Below, piece by piece: positions 13,001-56,600 of a DNA stretch of 64,000 bases. Numbering within the stretch: position 1 is the stretch's first letter; the number at the start of each line of letters is the position of its first letter. The notes under the pieces were generated by a model. It saw only the letters and a list, made by a program, of their open reading frames with translations. It was not told the DNA's origin and did not search any database. A program made the position numbers and the translations under genes. This DNA comes from Bugula neritina (lineage: Eukaryota; Bryozoa; Gymnolaemata; Cheilostomatida; Bugulidae), in contig OZ037767.1 of NCBI GenBank assembly GCA_964035545.1, positions 2,860,680-2,924,679 on the forward strand. Reading direction: 5' to 3'.

Positions 13001-16000
13001 CAGGTCAAGGCCGACTCAAAAAATTCTGCAAATTAGCAGAAGTAGAAAAACTATTCTATATTAACGGGATAACTTGATTATTTACTTCAGACAGACAAAT
13101 TTTCTAGAACTTGGTGTCACAGTCCCTTCAGTGGGGGAAAAGATTGGCGAAACTTATTGAAACCAGCCATTGTAACCTTAGAAATGTTCAAACAAAAAGG
13201 CTAAAATGGAACAGTAGAAAACAAAGCAGAGTTAGCTAGCAGCTACCGTAGGATAGAATCAATCTTATACATTACCTTAGAGATACTTGGCTCAGAGGAA
13301 ATGTAGTTTACAAACGTAGACATCACGGACACGCCGTCTAACATGCCGTCGTCAACATTGACGTCTAAAATCTGAGCCCCACTTTCAACTTGCTCCTTAG
13401 CAATGTTCAGCGCTTCCTGAAATGACACAGTCAGTTGTAGTTGAATACTTCCAGTTTTTGAGTACTGACAGCAGTGACAGCAAAAGCTGTCTTGAAATGA
13501 CTACCAAAGATGTGTACCGAATAGTTACCCTACCAGTACATGCATGTATCAAGAAAATATACATTATTTATACAAAAAATGGTAATTTCAAAACAAATAA
13601 CTTTGATGCAGCCTACTGAAGTAGTTTTACATTTCATTCCCATAGACTTAAAGAATCCCTGACACACTTTACTTATATAGCACGAAAATATTCATCTATA
13701 TCTTAGCTATCACTAGACCACCCCTTTGAGGGTGGATGGCTAGACTATTTTGTTTTATAACAAGATTAGTGCATGCATGTCCAGAAAACTTTCGGATTTC
13801 TAAGCTCTCAGTGCACACGTATTACGCCGGTTTCCGGTCTGCTTCGAGTCCTAGTTACTATATAACTAATAGTAATAATTGCATACTTTCACAGCATTTT
13901 ATTTTTAGCCACTGCAACACACAGATAAATCACTAAACTGACATAAATTTTAAAACACAGAGTACAACTAAGGCTCAATGAAAAAAACAAATGATACCAT
14001 TTTATTATTGATATTAAGAGCTAAAGTTACTTCCGTTAGAAATTTTGAGCATCGGAAAAATGAAATAGCCTCACCCTCACGATGTAATTAGAACGGGTGG
14101 CTAAGTACGGGGATAACACGATATTGTTGAAAGAAATTAGCTAAATCCAACGAGTGGTAAACTTTTCTATAAAACATTACAAATAATTGCATATTCAATT
14201 ATGTAACTTATTACGCTTCCAAATAGATTATCATTACCGTAACCGGATATTACCAATATAACCTGTGCCTAGTAGTACTACTACTAGTAGTAGTCGCTCG
14301 CTATCTATATAAATTAGATTTCATATTCATATTGCCATTGGACTCTAATGAACAAACTTATTACCTATATTACTAGTTACACTTACTGTCGACATGACTA
14401 CACGAATGGCTTCAAGTTCTAAAGGCAAATGCAAAAGAAGAGTGTGTGAAGCTGCAATGTGTTCGTACAAGGAAAAACACATGTTTAAACGGCCTGCTGA
14501 TACTGCGTGTGGTGAAAAATGGACCAAGTTTGTCAATACGAAAAGAAAAAACTTTCTGCCTGATAACAACTCTCGTTTGTGTTTTCAGCATTTTGGTGAT
14601 GAACAATTTACAAACATGGGCATGTATAAAACAAAACTCATTAACATGTAAGTGAATAACTCACTCAAACTCATAGTCATAGTGATACTGACTAATGACT
14701 TAGTGATTGTGATATAATTAGACGATAGGCTAATGATAGTTTTTTTAATGTTGATTTTCAACAATAAGTATAACTATAACTATCAACTAGTATCAAGTAT
14801 TACTACAAGTTGGTATAAGTCAATAGGATTGTCATGACCGTGTTGATTCAATTTCATGTGACTATGACATAAACTTGCAAGTACAAGTTTGCATTTATGA
14901 TTTACACGATAACCATTATTGTAAGGAAATTCATTTATAATGGCGATAATATGAAAGACTTATGATTATCAGAATGTGTCATAGTCACTTGGATACATAC
15001 CATTAATATTATGATTCATACGCACTGATACTCATGCTATGAGTATGATACTGGTAATGGTGCCCATCATCAATACCAGTAAAAATTAATGGTAAATATT
15101 GTTCACTTATTGAAAGAATAAAAATTCATTGTCTTTGATTTACTCTTTAGATTGCATTTAGAGAAAACAGCAGTCCCAACTATTCATTTAGTGGAAACTG
15201 AGGGTGCAACTGGATGCACTCCATTAACTCCTCGGAAACAAAGTCAGCAGGCGGCCACTATCACACCTAAAGAAGCTCGCTGGTTAAAAAGAACAGACCC
15301 TGGTTTTCTGTAAGGATTATAATATTGAAAATGCGATCTTGAGCAATAAAATTGAAATATGATATAGACAGCAATTGAGATTTTCTGCAGCTGTTTCAAT
15401 AATACTTTTCCAGTTACCTTCATATATAATAATATTTTAGAGCTTTGCCAAGTCAAACAAAAAAACCAGCTCTCCATCGTAAGCCAGAAAAGAAGGGCCT
15501 ACAGAAAGGAATAGGACACAACAAATATGTGCAAACACCTAAAAGGATGCAGAAAAAGATTAGAAGCAAAGCTGTTCAATGCTGGTATATAGAAATATGG
15601 CGAAATAGTATTGTTCACTTAGCTCAAAAACTGAATTCATAGCTTTTCTACATATTTATTTTTATTTAAAATGCATGTTCTAATGCAACAAAAAACCAAA
15701 TATTTTTGTGTAATGGAAATAATATTTTTAATTTTCCACCTCAAGGTGTGTCAAAAATAAATTTGGACAATATATCTACTTGTAGTCTCAGTTTCCATTG
15801 AAATGTAGATATTGTAGAATATGATCTTAGAGTCACTTGAAAAGTTCAGCGCAAAAATAGTCACCATATTGAAGTATATTCACCATTATTGCAACTCAAA
15901 CTCAACGGTAAATTAATTTCAAAGGTCAGGGAGATTGCAAATAATGAGGTTTATTCTCATAGTAAGCTGTACACACTACAAGAGGCAGTAGCAACTGACT

Positions 16001-19000
16001 GCTACTAAAAATCACCAGAGTGTTAATGTTCATAAATCTTCATTGTACACGAATTTGCTGAACATCCATTCAGCAAATTCTTCCTCATCTTCAGTTGGGG
16101 GGAATGTAGCTTGCACCCAATCGTATAAGCAAGCTGGTAAAGGGCGTCTCTCACCCTTTTTAATATCTGGAAACAGCCAGAACACCAAAAACCGGTAGCT
16201 GCAGAACCTTTTTTTAGTGTTGAGAGAATGGGCCTTCTCATCAAACAAATCATCTACCAAAATAAATGATTGGCTAAATAATCAAGTAAGACTATCTAGA
16301 AAAACTAACAATGACAGTTACTGATCTACAGTAGCAATTGACTAACCATGATATCTCAGGTAGCTGCTGTATGCAACTTCTAATACAGCTGGTTGCGTCA
16401 ATTGCTGTACTCCCGGGTGCTGTGTTATACATTCCATGCTGCTATCTAATCGAAGGTTTGCAGCATGATCACGGCAACAAACAGACTGTTCCACTGTAGG
16501 CTGATTTTGGCAGCGGTGGCAAGTGCACCACTCCGTGGCTGGCCTTATATTTTTCTACAAAACAAACAAGCTTTTCTAAAAACGTTATTACCAGTATCAT
16601 CCACATTAAGTCCATTGATTACTGTGTCTAAATTTGTTTCCTGTATGTTTCTTTGTATTGAAAATTGAGTCCAATGAGGCTGAAGTTTGAAAATACTTTA
16701 AAATCATGGGTTTTAAAATATTCCAAGTTTGCATTACTGTTCAAACTATTTTTATATTTATAGTTGAAAATTAATTAGATTTTTTATATCAAAACAAACT
16801 CATAATTTTTGCTATGAAATAAACTAATTTTCAGAAATTTTAAAATATTTTATTGTTGTTAGTACTATATGTTATACTATAAAAGCAGAAATTCAGAGAA
16901 ATAGGGGGCTTAGAAATAAAATACTAAATGCTATCATCGTGAATGCAAGTTTCACATGATTATGTATGTGATTAACTTATTTTGTTAAGGATCGGTATAA
17001 CCACAATTACAATAAAAGTGAATAATAATTATCATTATTATGCATTTATAAAAATACGGTCTTTCCCTTGACTTAAATTATCAGGTAAATCTAACTACAA
17101 ATAATTAATACTAATACCTGTATTGGTAGTAGTAATAACAAAATTAGTATTGATCAAATATTTAATTACTTGACTGGAATTTGTAATCATTAAATTTAAT
17201 GATTATCACTTTATTATTAATAATATTATTATTATATAAACCGATAGCAATCATCAAATATTTAGCTTGTAATTTGATATCATGCTTGCTCTAAAGCTTT
17301 AGTAGCACAAAACTCAGCTATATTAACTAATTAAGCCAGGATCAATACGAGCATTGGCATTGAGCATTGGAATTTCGATTACAAAATGAAAATGAAATAT
17401 TATAATTATAATAATTTATAACTTATACTAGCTTATACTTATAACTTAAAGTTAAAGTATTACTATTAGTATTAGTATTACTATTAGTATTACGGTATTA
17501 GTAACACTATAGTTTATAAAATTAAATCGTACTGATACTGTAAAATTATAAATATTATCACCTGTTGCTCATCAGTAACAGTAAAATCCTTGTCATGACT
17601 ATCATCTCCATTTTCATCTTGATACGTAAACGGCTCAAACTGATAGCCCATTACTTCAGAAATCTCAGTGACAGCGTGAGTGTGATTGTCATAGTCATAC
17701 TCATTGCGATTCTCACTGTGCTCTAAGTATTCTTCGTCAGAGCCAGATATGTTCATATTGATATCGTATTTATGTTATTTCTGTATTAGGTTTATCTTTA
17801 TCACAATTACACTGCACAGACTCGGACACGGTAAGTTGGTAGCTATGTATTTATTGCCGCGAAATTTGTTTATGAAATAAAACCTAAATTCCACAAAAAA
17901 ATACTAATTGGGGGCTAGACAGACGTCCGATAAATTAAAAATGCTAAAACTAAGGTTACATGCAACGGAAAATATAGCCAATACTTAATTTCCGAATGTC
18001 TTACAGGCGGCGTTTCCATCTATTTCTCGCAACTGCGGTGTAATACGTCACAGAAGGGCGAAAAAAATTCTCGAAGTTTTTTGGACATGCATGCACTAAA
18101 ACTGTTATAAAACAAAATTGTTTAGACCTGAAACCCTAAAAGAGTGTTAAAATGATAGCTAAGACATAGATGAATATTTTCATGCTATATAAGTAAAGTG
18201 TGTCAGGAATTCTTTAATCACTTCAAGTTTACAGTTTTGGTGCATAACTAAGTAAAGCAAAATACATTTATTTAGTAAAAACAAGTAAAGAATATGAGAT
18301 GAATTATTAACAGTAAATCACCAAACTAGTAAGTGACTTGATTTACCTGTATTAGTAAGTTACTAGACCTACATGTACCCTGTACTAGTAAGTTACTAGA
18401 CCTACATGTACCCTGTATTAGTAAGTTACTAGACTTATCTGTGCTTTGTATTGTAAGTAATTTGTACCTTACCTCGTACTTCCCTTCACGAACCAGCCTG
18501 GCAAACCTCCTAGATCCAGCCACATTGCATCTCTCACCAATGTTTACAAACAGAGTGTGTTTACCAACATACATGGGCTCCAAACCTACAAACAGCAACA
18601 GCTGTGTATCACAACAGGCCAAGTATATAGCACCTGAAGTGATGCACATAACACCTTGGATCATGTATATAACACCTCTGATCATGTGTACAGCACCTCA
18701 GGTCATGTATGCCACACCCCAGGCCATGTATATAACACCTTAGATGATGCATATAGCACCCCAGGTCATGCATAAGAAAAATACCAACACTAGTTCACTG
18801 CATGCAGACAAAATCAAAATTTGATTAAAAAACAGACAGTGCCACAGAAATTATGCACCAAAGTTGACAAGTCTACAGCAAAATTTTAAAAAAAATCATT
18901 TATTTATTAATTTATCAACACAATCAACAGCAGATGAAAAAGAACAAGATTGATGCATCGCGTGGTGATAGAATGCTAAGCATGCACAGACGGCGTGGAA

Positions 19001-39291: not shown

Positions 39292-41562
39292 TCTGGCGCT
39301 TCCCTCTGAATCTGTCCGAGAAAAAAATAAATTGAAACAAATATATATCTATATAAAGATGATTCGACATTTACAACTGAATATTATATAGTCCTAGCGA
39401 AAATAACAATATCATAATTTTTTCCAGTATTATAATTGGTGAACACTATTAATTGATAACAATTATACTTATAGCTTAAATTATTCTTTATCTTAGGTAA
39501 ATTGCTAAGTTTGCAGGTGATAATACTAATAAGTAATTGCATCATAATTACTATTACTATTAGTATTACTAAACTTACCTATAATTTCATTATATTTATT
39601 ATTTATCATCAATCATAATCATATTTAAATTATCGTTGCTACACTCCCATATACAAATAGTTTACTATACTAATAATAAATATTATTATAATTACAAATT
39701 ATATATTGTTAGCCTTATTAATATTATATATAATAATATATTATTATACTGCATAAACTTAAAGTGACAATCATAATTATTTTAGTTTTACTCAATATCA
39801 TGACAAATTTCAATTCAATGAGACTGGGTGACAGTATCATACTGATAGTGATGGTGTATCAGAATAAAAGTAATAACCACAATCACAATGACAATAGTTA
39901 TTAATTACATTATCATTATGAACATGTTGAACTTGATCACTAGTTGATGTTACATGAAGTTGAACATCATAATTATCAAGCTCAGCATGAACATGAGCAC
40001 CAGATTCAGTATTAGCATCATACTAAGTCTAACTATGAGTATGGAGTTGAGAAATCACTATCAGTAGAGTATCAGCATCACATTGACATTTTGATTCGCA
40101 GTTCACTATCACTATGATCTTGAGCTTGAAGTATGTCTATGATAATGATCATAAATAAAATTATTTTCGATTACGAATTACTATTAAATTTAGTATGAAA
40201 TTAAATATCAAAACCACTGCATGAATGTCCAATTTTACAGCTAAATGAACTTTGTAAAAAATGTTATGCTTATTAACACGTTGTTTTTTAATCAGGTTTC
40301 ACCGGTGTTGACGAAAACGCGAGTATTAAATGCATGTTTTATAGTTGCTCCATTGTGTTTATATTACACTCCAGAATAAAAGAAAAAATAGTTTTATAAG
40401 CAGCCTCAAGTTGGGAGCGACAGAGTGCAGTGGTTTGCAGTTCTCAAGTTTAAAGCTGGGAGTTTTAGTAAACGCCAACTCTAAACATGAGAATTTTAAA
40501 CTACTGCACTTATTCACCCTCGATTTTGAGCTGTTTATAGAATTATTTACACAGAAGCACACGCAATCTCCAATAAGTTGTGTTCTTATTATTTTACGAA
40601 AGCCTTAAAGACTGCTCGATAATACTAAAAAAAATTAAATTAAAATAGCAGGTTATAAAACATTTGTAAGTTGTACTCGCTACCGATGAATATAATCTTC
40701 GTGGTAGCTTGAAATTGTGACGTTTGACGCCGTATCGAAACATTAGGTGCAAAAAGATCCATTTCAATGCAAATCATTTTTCAGTACCCGGGAGCTAAGG
40801 TTGCGGACTAGTACATTTCCAAACTTCTCTGCTGAAATGTTTTTTTTTTCAATTTTCTCGCTTTTATCCCTTCATTGATAATTTAAATTTCTAAATAAGT
40901 GTAACATTAGCTAGTAAGTGTAACTAATAGTAATACTATAACATTAACTGTCATAAAGTATTATTACTATTACTATTAGTATTAGAAATAGAAATCATAG
41001 TAAAACTAAAAGTAAAACTAAATCACTAATCAGTAAAACTAAATCAAAATCAAAATGTAGTACTAGTAGACTAATACTAATTTAATACTAATAGTAATAC
41101 TAGTAATACTAAATCTAATAGTAATATTTATTTAATAGTAATACTTATGGTTATGACATTGATTGCTTAATTTCAAATTAGTCAAATTTGCATAATCATA
41201 ATCATAATGGTCATGTATAAAAATTCAAAATAAAAATTGGTACAAGCATGTAGTGTGTGCACCTGCACCACAGCAATGGCCTTCAAACCATGTTTTCAGC
41301 TTGCTGCTAACCACAGTCCTTAGCCTGCTTAAAAACCCTTCTTACCATTAGAGGTTTTCACAATGATAATGGCTTTAAACAAAAATGTGTTTATATGGGT
41401 TGAAGCAATAAGAAACTTAATGACTAACCAAGTTGGGTCATGATTTAGCCAAAGAAAAGTCAAGTCCGTATTTATTTGAAATGACTTGCAAGTAGTCTAA
41501 TATAATATAATTCCTATGTTGTAGAAGCTGTTGGGCTAGCCAAATAGTCAGAAGTTGAAATC
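39292..41562. other. Intergenic region between divergent MTR and PIGT
   Basis: Must contain the 5' regions of both genes. About 39390-40160 and 40900-41220 are degenerate low-complexity tracts built on ACTAATAGTAATA and ATGAGTAT-like words. Between them, about 40290-40820 has CpG-containing sequence (ttgacgaaaacgcgag, gtgacgtttgacgccg) that could be a promoter for MTR. No core promoter motif is clear. Confidence 0.45.
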
Positions 41563-43461
41563 ATGAGGCATCTCATGCTCCTTGTTGCTACACTGCATCT
41601 GCTCAACACTGCTCATGTGTATGGCAATGACAGATTTACTGAATCCTTGCAGCTTGAGCCGCTAGACAACCACCTGGTTCTTGGCCAATTTAAATTCTCA
41701 GTTACATCTTCTCCAAATGTTCTAATCACTGGACATTATCACCTTTTTCCAAAGTCACTCGGAGAAATTCTTCACAAATATCATATTCAAGAACTGGAGC
41801 TGTCTCTCACACAAGGACTCTGGAGGTACTCCCGGTGGGGAATACCTTCAGATGGAGTAGCTAACCCACCAGGCGCATCTATTCTCGTCCTATTTGACTC
41901 TGATTTACCTTTAGAAGATGTTGACAAGCACTGGAAAGGGTTGATTAATTCCTTGGCAGGTTTTATATGCGCCTCATTAAACTATGCAGACAAAACTGTA
42001 GCTACGAGTCCTCAATACACATTCACACCACGTGGTGCATTCAACGCCAACAAAACTTTCCAACATTCTCACCTTAGATACGCCAACCTTCCTCAAGAAA
42101 ATGTATGTACAGAAAACCTCACTCCATGGAAGAAGTTATTACCATGTGGTGGACAGGCAGGCTTATCATCGCTACTTAACTCCAAACCACTTTTTGATTC
42201 GAATTATCATTCCATGTCTATTATAGTTAGACCTCAGTGTAAGAATAGTGAATGTGATAGTATAAACTTAAACCTTACTTTAGGCTTATCTGTTGTTTTG
42301 GCTCATCCAAGGAAAGACTATTTCACACTAAGCTTTCTGTTTCGAAACTCTGTAGGCCGTGAATGCCACATTGCAGAGAGCAGTACTGTAGTTGTAAAGT
42401 TTCCTACGGTGGGCAAACTTTCCCTCAACCTGGAATCTCCCCCAGACCATACTGTGTCTAGTGAGCAACACACCTTGGTTAGTTATAAAGTTACTTCCAA
42501 CTTTAACCTTAAGGCTAGCTATAAAGTAAAACCTACATATGGGGCTGTAGCGCCACCAGTTTTGCACACCTTGAGGTATTTGTCAGGGTATGGCCAGGAG
42601 TACGGTTCTATTGTGTGCGAAATTACCAACAACGCGGAAGAGGTGATACAGATAGTGTATATGGAGTACATACCTTGGTTTCTTCGTATCTACCTTCACA
42701 CTCTGAGTATCACTAGCAGTGGGAGTAAAGTGCCAGTGTCAAAGGTAAGTTTTATATTTAAATGTTACCCTTGCAGTGTTTTTATATATAAATACCTTCT
42801 TATTAATATATATGCACATGTTTTGATGAAATTTTAGTTGCTTTATTCACCTGGCCTGGAGAGGAAAAAGCCATCCACATTTGAACTGCTACTAAATTTG
42901 CCGGCTAATGCAACAACTGTAATCAGGTTTGATGTTGAAAAGCTTTTCCTCAAGTGGACAGAATACCCACCAGATGCCAACCTTGGTTTTCATGTACCAG
43001 CAGCTATAATAACGGGTGTCATACCAGATGCCCCAGCAGGCTCCTCTATACAGATGCTGAGAGAAGGCTATGGCGTAGTTAGGTTTTACACTGAGAAGTT
43101 GGTTGTGTTGTTGCCAACACCAGATTTCAGTATGCCATATAATGTTATCTGTTTAGCTTGCACTGTGGTCGCACTTGCCTTCGGCTCCATACACAATCTC
43201 ACTACTAAGATATTGATAAGACCAAAAGAGAAGAAGATCTCCATTATGCAACGCGTTATTCGTAAAGTAAAAAAGGTTTTGGGTTTCAAAGTTGAAAAGG
43301 CTGTCCCATCTACACAGGAAGTACAATCTTCAACAGACAAAGCCCCCGCTGGTGAGACAACTCCCAGATATGAAACTTCTGTGGACAGTGAACCAACCGT
43401 GGACAGTGAAGTTTCACTAGAAGATAGTAAAGTGACTCTATCTACTACTCAAAATGACTGA
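41563..43461 (+). CDS. PIGT: GPI transamidase component PIG-T
   Basis: Subunit of the ER-membrane complex that cleaves the C-terminal signal of proproteins and attaches the GPI anchor. Exons 41563-42744 and 42838-43461 give 601 residues, near the 578 of human. Seen are the signal peptide MRHLMLLVATLHLLNTAHVYG, the block CTENLTPWKKLLPCGG, RYVSGYG-like RYLSGYG, WFLRIYLHTL, LLKWTEY-like FLKWTEYPPD, and DFSMPYNVICL running into one transmembrane helix at about residues 498-518. The Cys at position 182 corresponds to the family's Cys that forms a disulfide with the catalytic subunit PIGK. The cytoplasmic tail (~80 residues) is longer than in human, Ser/Thr/Glu-rich and ends in acidic repeats. One 93-bp intron splits the gene, unlike the many introns of its neighbour MTR. 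Confidence 0.96.
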
Positions 43462-49650: not shown

Positions 49651-49739
49651 AGAGTATTACTCACTGTGTAGCAGTTTTGTTAGGTCTGCTAGTAACCGCA
49701 AGCTTATCAGAGTAGGTTTAGGAATTCAACTGATGTCTT

Positions 49740-51212
49740 GTGAGTGTAGTTATTAGTATTTTATTCCAACTTATAACACTTTTGCTCACGAAGCTACACC
49801 GCAATGAAAATAAGACCTGGTGTGTTAAACCATGTTCCGCAGAGAGTCTCCATGAAGCTGAGACGAGAATTATCTCAGCCGTCCAGCAGAGCCACTACAA
49901 AGAGGACTACAGTACAGTAAAACAAGGACAGCAATTGTCAAAATCTAAACCTCTTGCTAAACTTAACCCATTCATTGATGGAGCCGGGATTATGCGTGTA
50001 GGTGGGAGGTTGCAGAGATCACAGGTGCTCAGCTATGAAGAGAAGCACCCCATAATTCTCCCTCGTGATGCACATGTAACGTCTCTAATAGTCCGGCACT
50101 ATCACAACAGCATTTATCACCTAGGGAGAACATCTACACTAAATGCAATTAGAACTGCAGGGTACTGGATCGTCGGAGCCACAAGACTTGTGAAGTCTAT
50201 GTTGAGCAAATGCGTCACCTGCAACAGGCTGCGTGGCAAGCCTATTACCCAAATCATGTCAATGCTACCCACAGAAAGACTAAATCCACAACCACCATTT
50301 ACAAATATAGGCATAGACTGCTTCGGACCCTTTACCGTTAAAGACAGGCGGTCAGAAGTAAAAAGATGGGGCCTCCTTGTCACGTGCATGTACTTCCGAG
50401 CTGTGCATATAGAGTTGTTGCCGGATATGACAACAGATTCATTTCTGAACGCTTTAAGAACACTGATCTGCATCAGAGGAGCAATAAATATGATTTACTG
50501 TGACAGAGGGACCAACTTTGTTGGAGCCGACAACGAGCTCACAAGAGAACTCCATGCGATGGACCAAGGGTCATCTGCACTAACAACATTTTTAAAGGAA
50601 AATCGAATCACCTTCCAGTTCAACGCGCCACATTCGAGCCATGCTGGGGGTGTTTGGGAACGCCAAATTCGTAGTGTACGATCTGTACTGGAAGGTATGA
50701 AATTTACAGGTAAGTACAACAGGCTGGATACACCGGGGCTCCGTACTGCCTTCTATGAGGCAATGGCTACGGTCAATAGCCGACCATTGGCGATAAACAG
50801 CTTGAATGACCCTGAGGCACCTATACTCACTCCAAATCATCTACTGACATCAAAATCAAGACAGATAGGACCCCCACCAGGAAAATTTGAGACCACGGAG
50901 ATCTATGGAAGAAAAATGTGGAGAAAGGCTCAACAGTTTGCTGAAGAATTCTGGAGACTATGGAAAGTTGAATACATGCAGCAGATTACAAAGCGACAAA
51001 GGTGGGAGAACCAAACACGTGATGTTCATACAGGAGATCTAGTCATGCTTATAGAAGAGAACGTATTGCGAAATGAATGGCCCTATGGATTGGTCAAGGA
51101 AACGTTGAAAAGTGCTGATGGCAGGGTCAGAAGAGTGAAAGTAAAGACTAACACTGGGACAACACTAGAGCGTCCGATACAGAAGCTAGTGCTGCTACAG
51201 GAGCAAGAGTAG
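49740..51212 (+). pseudogene. BEL/Pao pol fragment: integrase plus C-terminal DUF5641-like domain
   Basis: A 490-codon open frame without an ATG at its border (it opens on GTG). Family similarity starts around 49845. Order: RVGGRLQ region; zinc-binding HHCC (HYHNSIYH ... CVTC); the catalytic core with Asp in IDCFGPF, Asp in YCDRGTNFVGA and Glu in GGVWERQIRSV; then PRPLAINSLNDPEAPILTP-type and GDLVMLIEENVLRNEWPYG segments of the C-terminal domain. The D,D,E triad is complete and no stop interrupts it, but the protein lacks everything upstream in pol, so the element is non-autonomous. No spliced leader or promoter is evident. Confidence 0.85.
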
Positions 51213-52835: not shown

Positions 52836-53659
52836 TCAAATCTTAGCGTTATCATAATCAGACTTTCCACCAGTCTTAAACAACAGTTCGATGTCAGAAA
52901 TAATAATGTCATGAGTGATGGCCTTACACATGTCATAGATGGTAAGGGCGGCCAGTGAAACAGCCGTCAAAGCTTCCATTTCCACACCAGTAGAAGACTC
53001 AGTCTTAACCTCACTGTATAAAATAACACTGTGGCTGTCCGCCACAAGGTCAAAATCTACAGACACCTTAGAGAGGTTAATACTGTGACACAGTGGAATT
53101 AGGTTGCTGGTCTTTTTAGCTCCAGTAATCCCAGCAATACGTGCTACAGAGAGCACGTCCCCTTTAGCTAACTGGTTTTCTATAACAAGGTTATATGCTT
53201 GTTTACCAAGATACACACGAGCTGTAGCCTTGGCAATACGCACTGCAGGTAGTTTACCAGACACGTCAACCATATTAGCTTTACCTGCAGAGTCTGTGTG
53301 AGTTAAGGAAGAAGTTCCAGAATATGTGTCACGATTTGATTGGTTAGAAAGTAATGATCCAACATTACTCAGTACAGACGCTATAGACATTTCTGGTGCC
53401 TCGCCAAACCTCTCTCGATACTGATCATTCCAATAATCTCCGGAATATTTACACTCTGCAGATACTATGTCATCAGGTTTAGCTGTGACATCATCAGATT
53501 TAGCTGTGACATCATCAGATTTAGCTGTTAGATGACGCACATGATTAGAGCCATCAAATACATGACTATTATGATTGGAAGAGTTAGACTTGGTAGAATA
53601 AAGTCTGGCAGATGAGAATTGGCGAGTTTTCAACTTGGGCAGATAACTGGATACCCATT
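52836..53659 (-). CDS. MOCS1: MOCS1B: cyclic pyranopterin monophosphate synthase (MoaC), single exon
   Basis: The acceptor TTTTTTAG at 53660 opens a 274-codon exon. The first ~40 residues ([15 protein letters not shown], then [10 protein letters not shown]) look like an internal mitochondrial targeting segment. A linker with three copies of AKSDDVT-like octapeptides follows. The MoaC domain shows [63 protein letters not shown] and a closing GGKS. The active-site Asp and Lys of DMCKA are present. MOCS1B completes pyranopterin formation after the MOCS1A step. The frame is also open upstream of the acceptor (to 53759), so the long ORF start there is not the biological one. Confidence 0.93.
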
Positions 53660-56600
53660 CTAAAAAACATGATGCCAAAAACTCTACGATTTTTACAAGC
53701 TGTACAATTATCATAGAAAAGTAATTTTTATGTTCAAAGATGATTCTGCTCCAATTCATTAAGTTTCCTTCACATTTTAAGTAGAAACCAATTTTGAGAT
53801 ACTAAGTTTCAGTAGTTACAACAATACGAAGCTATGCCCAAAAACACATTTTTTTTCAAATTTAAATTAATTTACTTAGAATTAGTTAAAACCAAATTAC
53901 TAGCACCAAAAACATGTAGCCTATGCAATTTGGTTTGAGTATTTAACTGCATAGAAAGTCTATCATCCCTTTTTTAAGCAATTATGAAACTGTACAATTA
54001 CTTATAGTCATTATTAAAATATCTATGTAAGAATTAAAATCTTTAACATGTAACTCATAAAAGAGAAGGCGCGTTTAAAAGCATTCTAATCGAGCTAATA
54101 ATTTTATTTTGAAATGTATTACATATATTAATATATTCAGCAACAAAGACTTCTATATGTAATTATACCTAAAATAAAATCTACCAAAACACAATTAAAC
54201 AGAAAACAAAATTAATTGAAATTAAAATTTATAAAATTTCAAATGTTTGTCATACATTCGTCGTGTCACCCACCAATTAAACTAATTGATCGGTTTATAC
54301 ATAGTTGAGCTTGTAGTAGAGCAATATTACATGAAACAGAGGTGACAACTCTGAAAAGGTAATTGCAAGTGTCATAAATGATTTATAAACATACATGACC
54401 ACAAAATATTCTTTTCAAAATCTTGCAAAAGACCAAAACACGACTTCATAGTATTGGTTTAAAAGCTTCTAAGTAATAACTGGCAGTGCTTCAAACATAT
54501 TATAAGAAACTTTCAGCTTAGCAAGCACTTTAGAGTCAGAATTTTCAAATTCACTACTTTGCATAGAGTTTTTAATAGAATTTACTTACTCAATAGACTG
54601 CAAGGTTCTGTTGAGCTGATTTTACTATATGACGCGAAATTTGCTAAATAGGTGGGGGGTAAAGTAGGGCCTGGACTTTTCTACAACAATGAAAAAAGAA
54701 ATAGTAATGCTTCTAAAAGGATATGACAAAACGCAGATTATAATGCAGGCTATTTGAACATTGACAATTCTAAGTATTTCACAGTTATATTGTATTTTTA
54801 CAACTCTTATCGAAAATCCTGGAGAAAAAAAAGTTTTGCAGGCTACTAGTAACTTAACTTAATGAAAATCTATTGCGGACAATATATTAAACAGATGCAC
54901 ATAATATATGAAGGCGGGTGAGTTTTAATAACTTTATTACTCACACTTTGGCTATCATGTTGATTTTCAGCATGCAAGATATTTTTCTCTCTCGCTGAGC
55001 TATGATGATTGCTAAAATTCAGCCCTCTACCAATCATTGACTTCAAACTCCATTGTGGCTGTGGAGAAGCATAAACGCGCGTAAGGTGGCGTAGACATCT
55101 TTCACCTGTTGCAAGATGTCATATACGACTTACAATATTTGAATTTAATAAATATATCAGAAAAAGAACTATAAAGCATAGAAACGGTTATAATCACTAC
55201 ACCTTATTCAGTAGTTTATTTACTAGCAAGCATAACTTGCCAAGTCTCATTTTTATGATGAGAGCTAAAGAAACAAACTTGCAATACTACAAAAAGTTTC
55301 AGCTAACACAATACTTTTCAACCCTAAAGACTCATCATTCACTTAAACTTACCACTCATAACTTGAGACTGACTCGGGCTTTTTGTACAACTCCAGGTTA
55401 CTATAAACACATAAATCAGTGGTAGTATCCACCAGAATATAATCAAGCGTACTAGCAATACTAATAGCACTAGTAGAGCTATAACTATGACTAAATCGCA
55501 ATATATTAGTATTATATAATAACTTAGCCTATAAGTATCTTTATGAGTACTTTATCTGTATTAAACGTTCACTTTGACTTTCACTTAGAGTTAGTAATCT
55601 TAATTTTGTTTTTTAAAGCTAATATTACTAGTTTAGCATTTGCACGGCATTATGAGTATTTGATTAAAATTGAGTTATTACTTGAAGATGATAGTCGAGA
55701 GCCATAACTCAAACTGTAACATAAACTGTAAAATTAAACATAAATAGAAGTTGATTATTACGTAAGACTCAACACTAATACTAATAGTTACTAATAGTAA
55801 TAATAATAGACTAGGTCTAATAGTAATACTAATAGTTAATCTTTATCTCATGAGTCAAACTTAATGTTATCATTATGATCATCATCATGATCATCATCAA
55901 GTGATCATCATCATCATCATCCTGATGATGATCTCCTAAAACTTTTACTAAAAGTAAAGCTTAATAATTATAATCATAATGGGCATAACTTAAAAATTTA
56001 AAATGATATATCATTCATGACTAATTGATGTTGATGCTGCACATTTATTGAGTTGTGCTATTACAAAGGCTTTAAAAAGTTTAGCCAACACAATGATCAT
56101 GATAGTGATGGTGAATATCATCGCAACAGTCACTGGGTGTAAAAAGTAATTGTTGAACTCCTTCTGTAGGTGAAAAGAGTTATTGGAAATTCATTTCAGT
56201 ATTTTTACCGAGCATCGACGCGTCAAAACTACAAAAATATTATTTCGCGAACGCGGCTCCAGAGTTATCTTCCTTTAACTGATATGGCTACATCGCTCGC
56301 CCCTGAATATGCATTACAAATTATGCATTTTTTGTGTACTTCTGAACTATTTACATTCATACTGAAGCAGAATAAATGTATTAGCTAACAGCAATAATAC
56401 ATGCTTGTATAAAATATCATCTTTGACCTCAAGAAAAAATGAGATAGCAAAGGTTTGCCAACACAATAGCTATGTTTTAAATTAGCTTTTTAAACTTATA
56501 TACCTTTCCAATCTTACAATAAAGCATATTTCCTGATATTTAGAAAATAGAGAACTAAGCAACTAGTTTAGAAGGCTCCATTAGCAAAACAGGAGGATTA

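Follow-up and report, generated by a model that had tools for sequence, protein, structure and literature searches.

A recently active, non-autonomous Kolobok element carrying THAP and KolX genes in Bugula neritina

Our analysis identifies, in a 64,000-nucleotide stretch of Bugula neritina DNA (the window, meaning the whole stretch that was analysed), a recently active, non-autonomous Kolobok transposon that has lost its DDE core. With high confidence we read it as an internally deleted Kolobok of the Kol0 type, probably produced by gap repair and then mobilised in trans. The element carries a THAP gene and, convergent to it, a gene for the P2X7-like protein KolX. That the P2X7-like protein originated in a transposon, and that KolX is associated with Kolobok, has already been published (Kojima & Bao 2022, PMC9587614).

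Structure of the element and its copies

The features of the window element are as follows, in window coordinates.

13652..18213, 4562 bp: whole element, non-autonomous Kolobok (Kol0-type) internal-deletion derivative of deletion class A
13648..13651: left TTAA target-site duplication
13652..13830, plus strand: left terminal inverted repeat, starting AGAATCCCTGACACAC, inner limit approximate
14394..14647, plus strand: THAP exon 1, 5' exon of the transposase gene (predicted)
15151..15309, plus strand: THAP exon 2, containing AVPTI (predicted)
15441..15642, plus strand: THAP exon 3 (predicted)
15811..15813: deletion junction relative to the longer copy L017, 3-bp microhomology; L017 has a further 2.85 kb there, with DDE exons
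16030..16253, minus strand: KolX (P2RX7_C) exon 3 (predicted)
16347..16554, minus strand: KolX (P2RX7_C) exon 2, with WCxCxxC (predicted)
17562..17756, minus strand: KolX exon 1, acidic N-terminal part, start codon at 17756 (predicted)
18034..18213, minus strand: right terminal inverted repeat, reading inward AGAATTCCTGACACAC, inner limit approximate
18214..18217: right TTAA target-site duplication

A previous reading of the window, made from the sequence alone (the sequence-only reading), had described TTAA at both borders, a single difference between the outer 30 bases of the two ends, inverted ends of about 180 bp, two convergent three-exon genes of 204 and 208 aa, and no visible transposase. 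The TTAA copies are present, and base-by-base reading of the left and right ends found the one mismatch. The figure of about 180 bp is fair but generous, because a left-end query aligned with the window's own right end over bases 1-140 (84%) and with the right ends of two other copies over bases 1-178 (80-81%); the gap-free inverted arms measure 144 nt at 85% identity, with the TTAA counted in. In the genome searches with the element ends, 40 candidates were scored each time, out of 254 and 305 respectively. Just beyond the right border lie tandem repeats of 33 bp (18346-18450) and 21 bp (18603-18791).

Both genes have open models with domain matches. The predicted THAP model comprises three exons with GT-AG introns and an open frame of 204 aa, and it matches PF05485 (E=2.2e-7); an AVPTIF box has been described for Kolobok THAP domains (PMC6004289). 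The KolX model, on the minus strand, likewise has three predicted exons and an open frame, of 208 aa. It shows the similarity to the P2X7 ballast that is a trait of the Kol0 lineage, with a match to PF20478, P2RX7_C (E=8e-14), and an alignment of residues 68-197, covering WCxCxxC, the C-Y-R block and LPxC, with the P2X7 PDB chain 6u9v (E=8.4e-5). A transposase core is indeed absent from the window copy, since its longest stop-to-stop frame, of 99 aa, is the THAP exon, and none of the DDE motifs occurs in it.

For the copy count, the 216-Mb assembly was searched with a pattern consisting of TTAA and the 30-base terminus, with up to 3 mismatches allowed, within the TTAA too. This search yielded 66 ends, against 0 for a reversed-pattern control, and all strings matched start with TTAA. 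Pairing by eye gave 25 elements, all with TTAA at both ends by the pattern search, while 16 ends stayed unpaired at this number of mismatches. In 22/22 elements read base by base (the window and 21 loci), TTAA stands on both sides and the termini are AG...CT, that is, of 5'-RR ... YY-3' type; their flanks look unrelated within the 24 bases printed. The sequence-only reading had named further copies with the same ends, TTAA borders and gene pair as the check on its proposal, and ends that occur nowhere else or never flank these genes as the outcome against it. That outcome was not seen: both genes, or clear parts of both, are present in 22/25 paired copies. Both are lost in L028 (1152 bp) and L035 (400 bp), and L031 retains fragments of THAP exon 1 and of KolX exon 1.

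The KolX protein was used as the genome query because a search with the Pfam model PF20478 gave no match in the genome and likewise none in its 14 control genomes. At least 171 KolX-like matches were found (150 of 236 candidates scored), and many of them, among the matches listed, are dispersed repeats with equal scores. This agrees with the earlier suggestion that the P2X7-like expansion is partly transposon-borne, which was already in print (PMC9587614). At G000:C6:12940873-12946177, six tandem KolX-like matches with 47-51% identity and a spacing of about 1 kb may represent a ballast gene that is host-resident or has been amplified in tandem. A further dispersed repeat, L043:1136-5181, bears a relic of KolX exon 3; it has four copies at 93-100% (L043 counted) and at least 32 more at 72-74% among 40 of 1513 candidates scored, the other L043 search having scored 40 of 133.

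Transposase-bearing relatives and the deletion of the core

One copy with the same ends and TTAA, L017 (G000:C8:9090471-9097889, 7419 bp), contains an extra 2.85 kb between THAP and KolX, at position 2160-2162 of the window element. This segment encodes TTDRH (the second D), FDTWH (the DxxH motif) and TSELESFH (the catalytic E), with a zinc knuckle between DxxH and E, HIANEHTFDYPEFSSCEH, of the pattern H..N.H..C.H. L017 gave no match to the first-D pattern, its first-D exon being missing, and its KolX is frameshifted. A phase-2 donor at element position 1922, in THAP exon 3, is predicted to join in frame with an acceptor at 2787, so that the frame would run on uninterrupted into the first downstream transposase exon.

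A divergent locus, L050+L042 (about G000:C6:5892398-5900766, with a weak right end), has the same order of THAP exons, DDE core and convergent KolX. Its THAP exon 1 was recovered by tblastn (35% over 69 aa, E=7.7e-7) and the later exons by eye, and DGRCDSPG, TTDRH, DTWH and TSELEAFH supply all three catalytic positions by motif. The zinc-finger pattern of L017 was unmatched in L042, where a shorter H..N.H was seen by eye. Inverted-repeat searches alone did not define the ends of this locus; the left terminus of L050 is supported by 40 identical bases at the start of L043:1136, and the right border of L043 is unlike it.

Owing to the in-frame splice pair in L017 and the collinear exons in L050+L042, the THAP gene of the window most plausibly represents the 5' end of a gene for a Kolobok transposase. 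Its exon 3 probably closes with retained intron, which supplies the final 18 codons and the stop now that the downstream exons are gone; this is indicated by the alternative donor in the equivalent exon of L017, which is predicted to splice in frame. By its predicted models, the window copy retains coding capacity for two proteins, a THAP-only truncated transposase and KolX.

In Pfam, six DDE pieces from L017 and L049 gave only matches below the cut-off, MULE (E=0.0079) among them, and NCBIfam returned nothing for two DDE pieces. The search for copies with a DDE core, which the sequence-only reading had proposed, succeeded in part: relatives exist, partial in L017 and divergent in L050+L042, but the genome searches found no copy in which an intact transposase is combined with these ends. 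With no first-D motif and a frameshifted KolX, L017 is not an intact autonomous copy; the transposase acting at present may come from a related family, or its source may have been lost or be missing from the assembly. L049:1437-2259 holds a further Kolobok-like transposase that has a zinc knuckle and TTSELESFH; it lies downstream of frames that we take to resemble a different transposon type.

With L017 as the reference, 21/22 compared copies (window counted) are without DDE exons, L017 being the exception. Eight distinct deletion structures occur among the 21, every one of them removing the DDE exons:

Class A deletion, L017 2150/4997: seven copies, window counted
Deletion 2390/4946: eight copies, L018 ending at 2387
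Single deletion structures: L015 (two gaps), L016, L019, L022, L027 and L032

L019 has additionally lost 36 bases at the KolX end, and L032 about three. These eight structures, out of 11 distinct structures in all, retain most of both flanking genes. The seven class-A copies show only 0-0.62% substitution differences and therefore moved recently. Abortive gap repair after excision of a cut-and-paste element probably removed the DDE exons and would have left the ends, the THAP exons and KolX in place; the 3-bp microhomology at the junction is consistent with such an event. The derivative would then have been cut and pasted into TTAA sites by a transposase supplied in trans.

Constraint on the two genes

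Within the family, no sign of selection was detected among 20 copies (L030 and L032 standing outside this test), in which the three codon positions show similar differences, for positions 1/2/3 at 0.0076/0.0109/0.0130 in KolX and 0.0121/0.0134/0.0142 in THAP. THAP is intact in 13/22 copies, and the KolX frame in 12/20 (11/20 with the GT donor). Both genes, GT donor included, are intact in 6/20 copies, five of them in class A, so that intact pairs make up 5/7 of class A versus 1/13 of the other copies scored for both genes; these counts omit L029, L033, L034 and L038, and for KolX also L030 and L032, which have a missing exon.

Comparison with the divergent relatives gave a different picture. 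For THAP versus L039, dN/dS is about 0.2 by NG86 (0.146/0.742; 0.103/0.534) and 0.20-0.28 by YN00, and for KolX versus L042, where dN/dS is not computable, the changed third positions (41/63 and 43/73) far exceed the changes at positions 1+2 (35/126 and 31/146). So both genes appear to have been under constraint over the long history of the lineage, whereas among the present copies none is detectable.

A likeness exists to KP of the Drosophila P element, in which an internal deletion also leaves the DNA-binding part of the transposase as a short protein; KP retains the THAP part of the P transposase. Repression has been reported for KP, which is a known self-encoded repressor (PMC8700633, PMC7313671), whereas any such role of the window derivative is putative and the derivative additionally retains KolX. 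An alternative that is compatible with our main reading, and that we regard as unlikely, takes this likeness further and holds that the two-gene element is maintained, with selection favouring deletion derivatives that retain both genes, the THAP-only protein repressing in the manner of KP or helping by binding the ends, and KolX having an accessory part. The precedent of KP, the retention of most of both genes in 8/11 deletion structures and the richness of young class A in intact pairs would fit, but the DDE exons are central, where internal deletions would fall regardless, and the intactness of class A may merely reflect its youth. The even codon-position differences and the low number of copies with both genes intact also speak against maintenance, as do L028, L035 and L031, which lack most or all of both genes. 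Less likely again, in our estimation, is that the THAP-only truncated transposase and KolX have been selected as a self-encoded regulator that originated repeatedly, as eight deletion structures, and is now out-multiplying its parent. A KP-like repressor role of the THAP-only product is possible, although the selection test does not support it.

Relation to known transposons and window surroundings

Kolobok elements have TTAA duplications, RR/YY ends and a DDD/E transposase in which a C/DxxH motif sits between the second D and the E, with a zinc finger before the last E in almost all lineages; in the Kol0 lineage the transposase is accompanied by a second encoded protein, KolX, whose fold is that of the P2X7 cytoplasmic ballast, and P2X7 was concluded to be a fusion of a P2X4-like gene with KolX (PMC9587614). 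By these published traits we take the window family to be of the Kol0 type: it shares TTAA, RR/YY ends and KolX, and its relatives carry DDE motifs with DxxH, partial in L017 and complete by motif in L042, the difference being that the window copy, like the other 20 copies lacking it, has no DDE core. In the Kolobok of Xenopus, THAP with an AVPTIF-type box, DDE and an H2CH zinc finger are joined in one transposase (PMC6004289), as we infer for L017 and L042; the accessible text of that paper mentions no THAP-only derivative. A THAP-plus-KolX derivative without transposase was likewise not found among the papers listed in the literature searches, which gives weak evidence of absence.

Capture of host THAP and P2X7-like genes between transposon ends would accommodate the introns and open frames of both window genes, but we consider it very improbable. 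Both genes belong to the transposon lineage, because L017 and L050+L042 have them on either side of the DDE core, with order and orientation unchanged, and the presence of KolX within Kol0 elements has been published (PMC9587614). Least credible of all is that a piggyBac-type element captured THAP and P2X7-like genes. Such an element would share the TTAA duplications, but the AG...CT ends are of the Kolobok 5'-RR/YY-3' type used to separate Kolobok from piggyBac (PMC9587614), the DDE pieces of the relatives bear the Kolobok DxxH motif and zinc finger, and no piggyBac domain was among the Pfam matches of the six pieces from L017 and L049.

The suggestion of the sequence-only reading that the gene pair may form a previously undescribed two-gene element is not supported: relatives with a DDE core exist, the THAP exons are most likely those of the transposase, and the origin of KolX was published in 2022 (PMC9587614). 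The ballast domain has been described across animals (PMC7016195), in a paper whose main text uses words beginning 'transpos-' 0 times. Within a single genome, by way of very young copies with clean TTAA borders, our findings show P2X7-type ballast genes being carried by Kolobok elements; this agrees with the proposal, already in the literature, of a transposon origin for the P2X7 tail. The nearly identical class-A copies offer practical material for asking about the role of KolX.

Elsewhere in the window, positions 49734-51209 hold a retrotransposon integrase region with Integrase_H2C2 and DUF5641, which we take to be BEL/Pao-like. Host-type genes lie at 41548-43461, where two frames encode Gpi16, a GPI transamidase subunit, and at 52839-53801, where MoaC is encoded.
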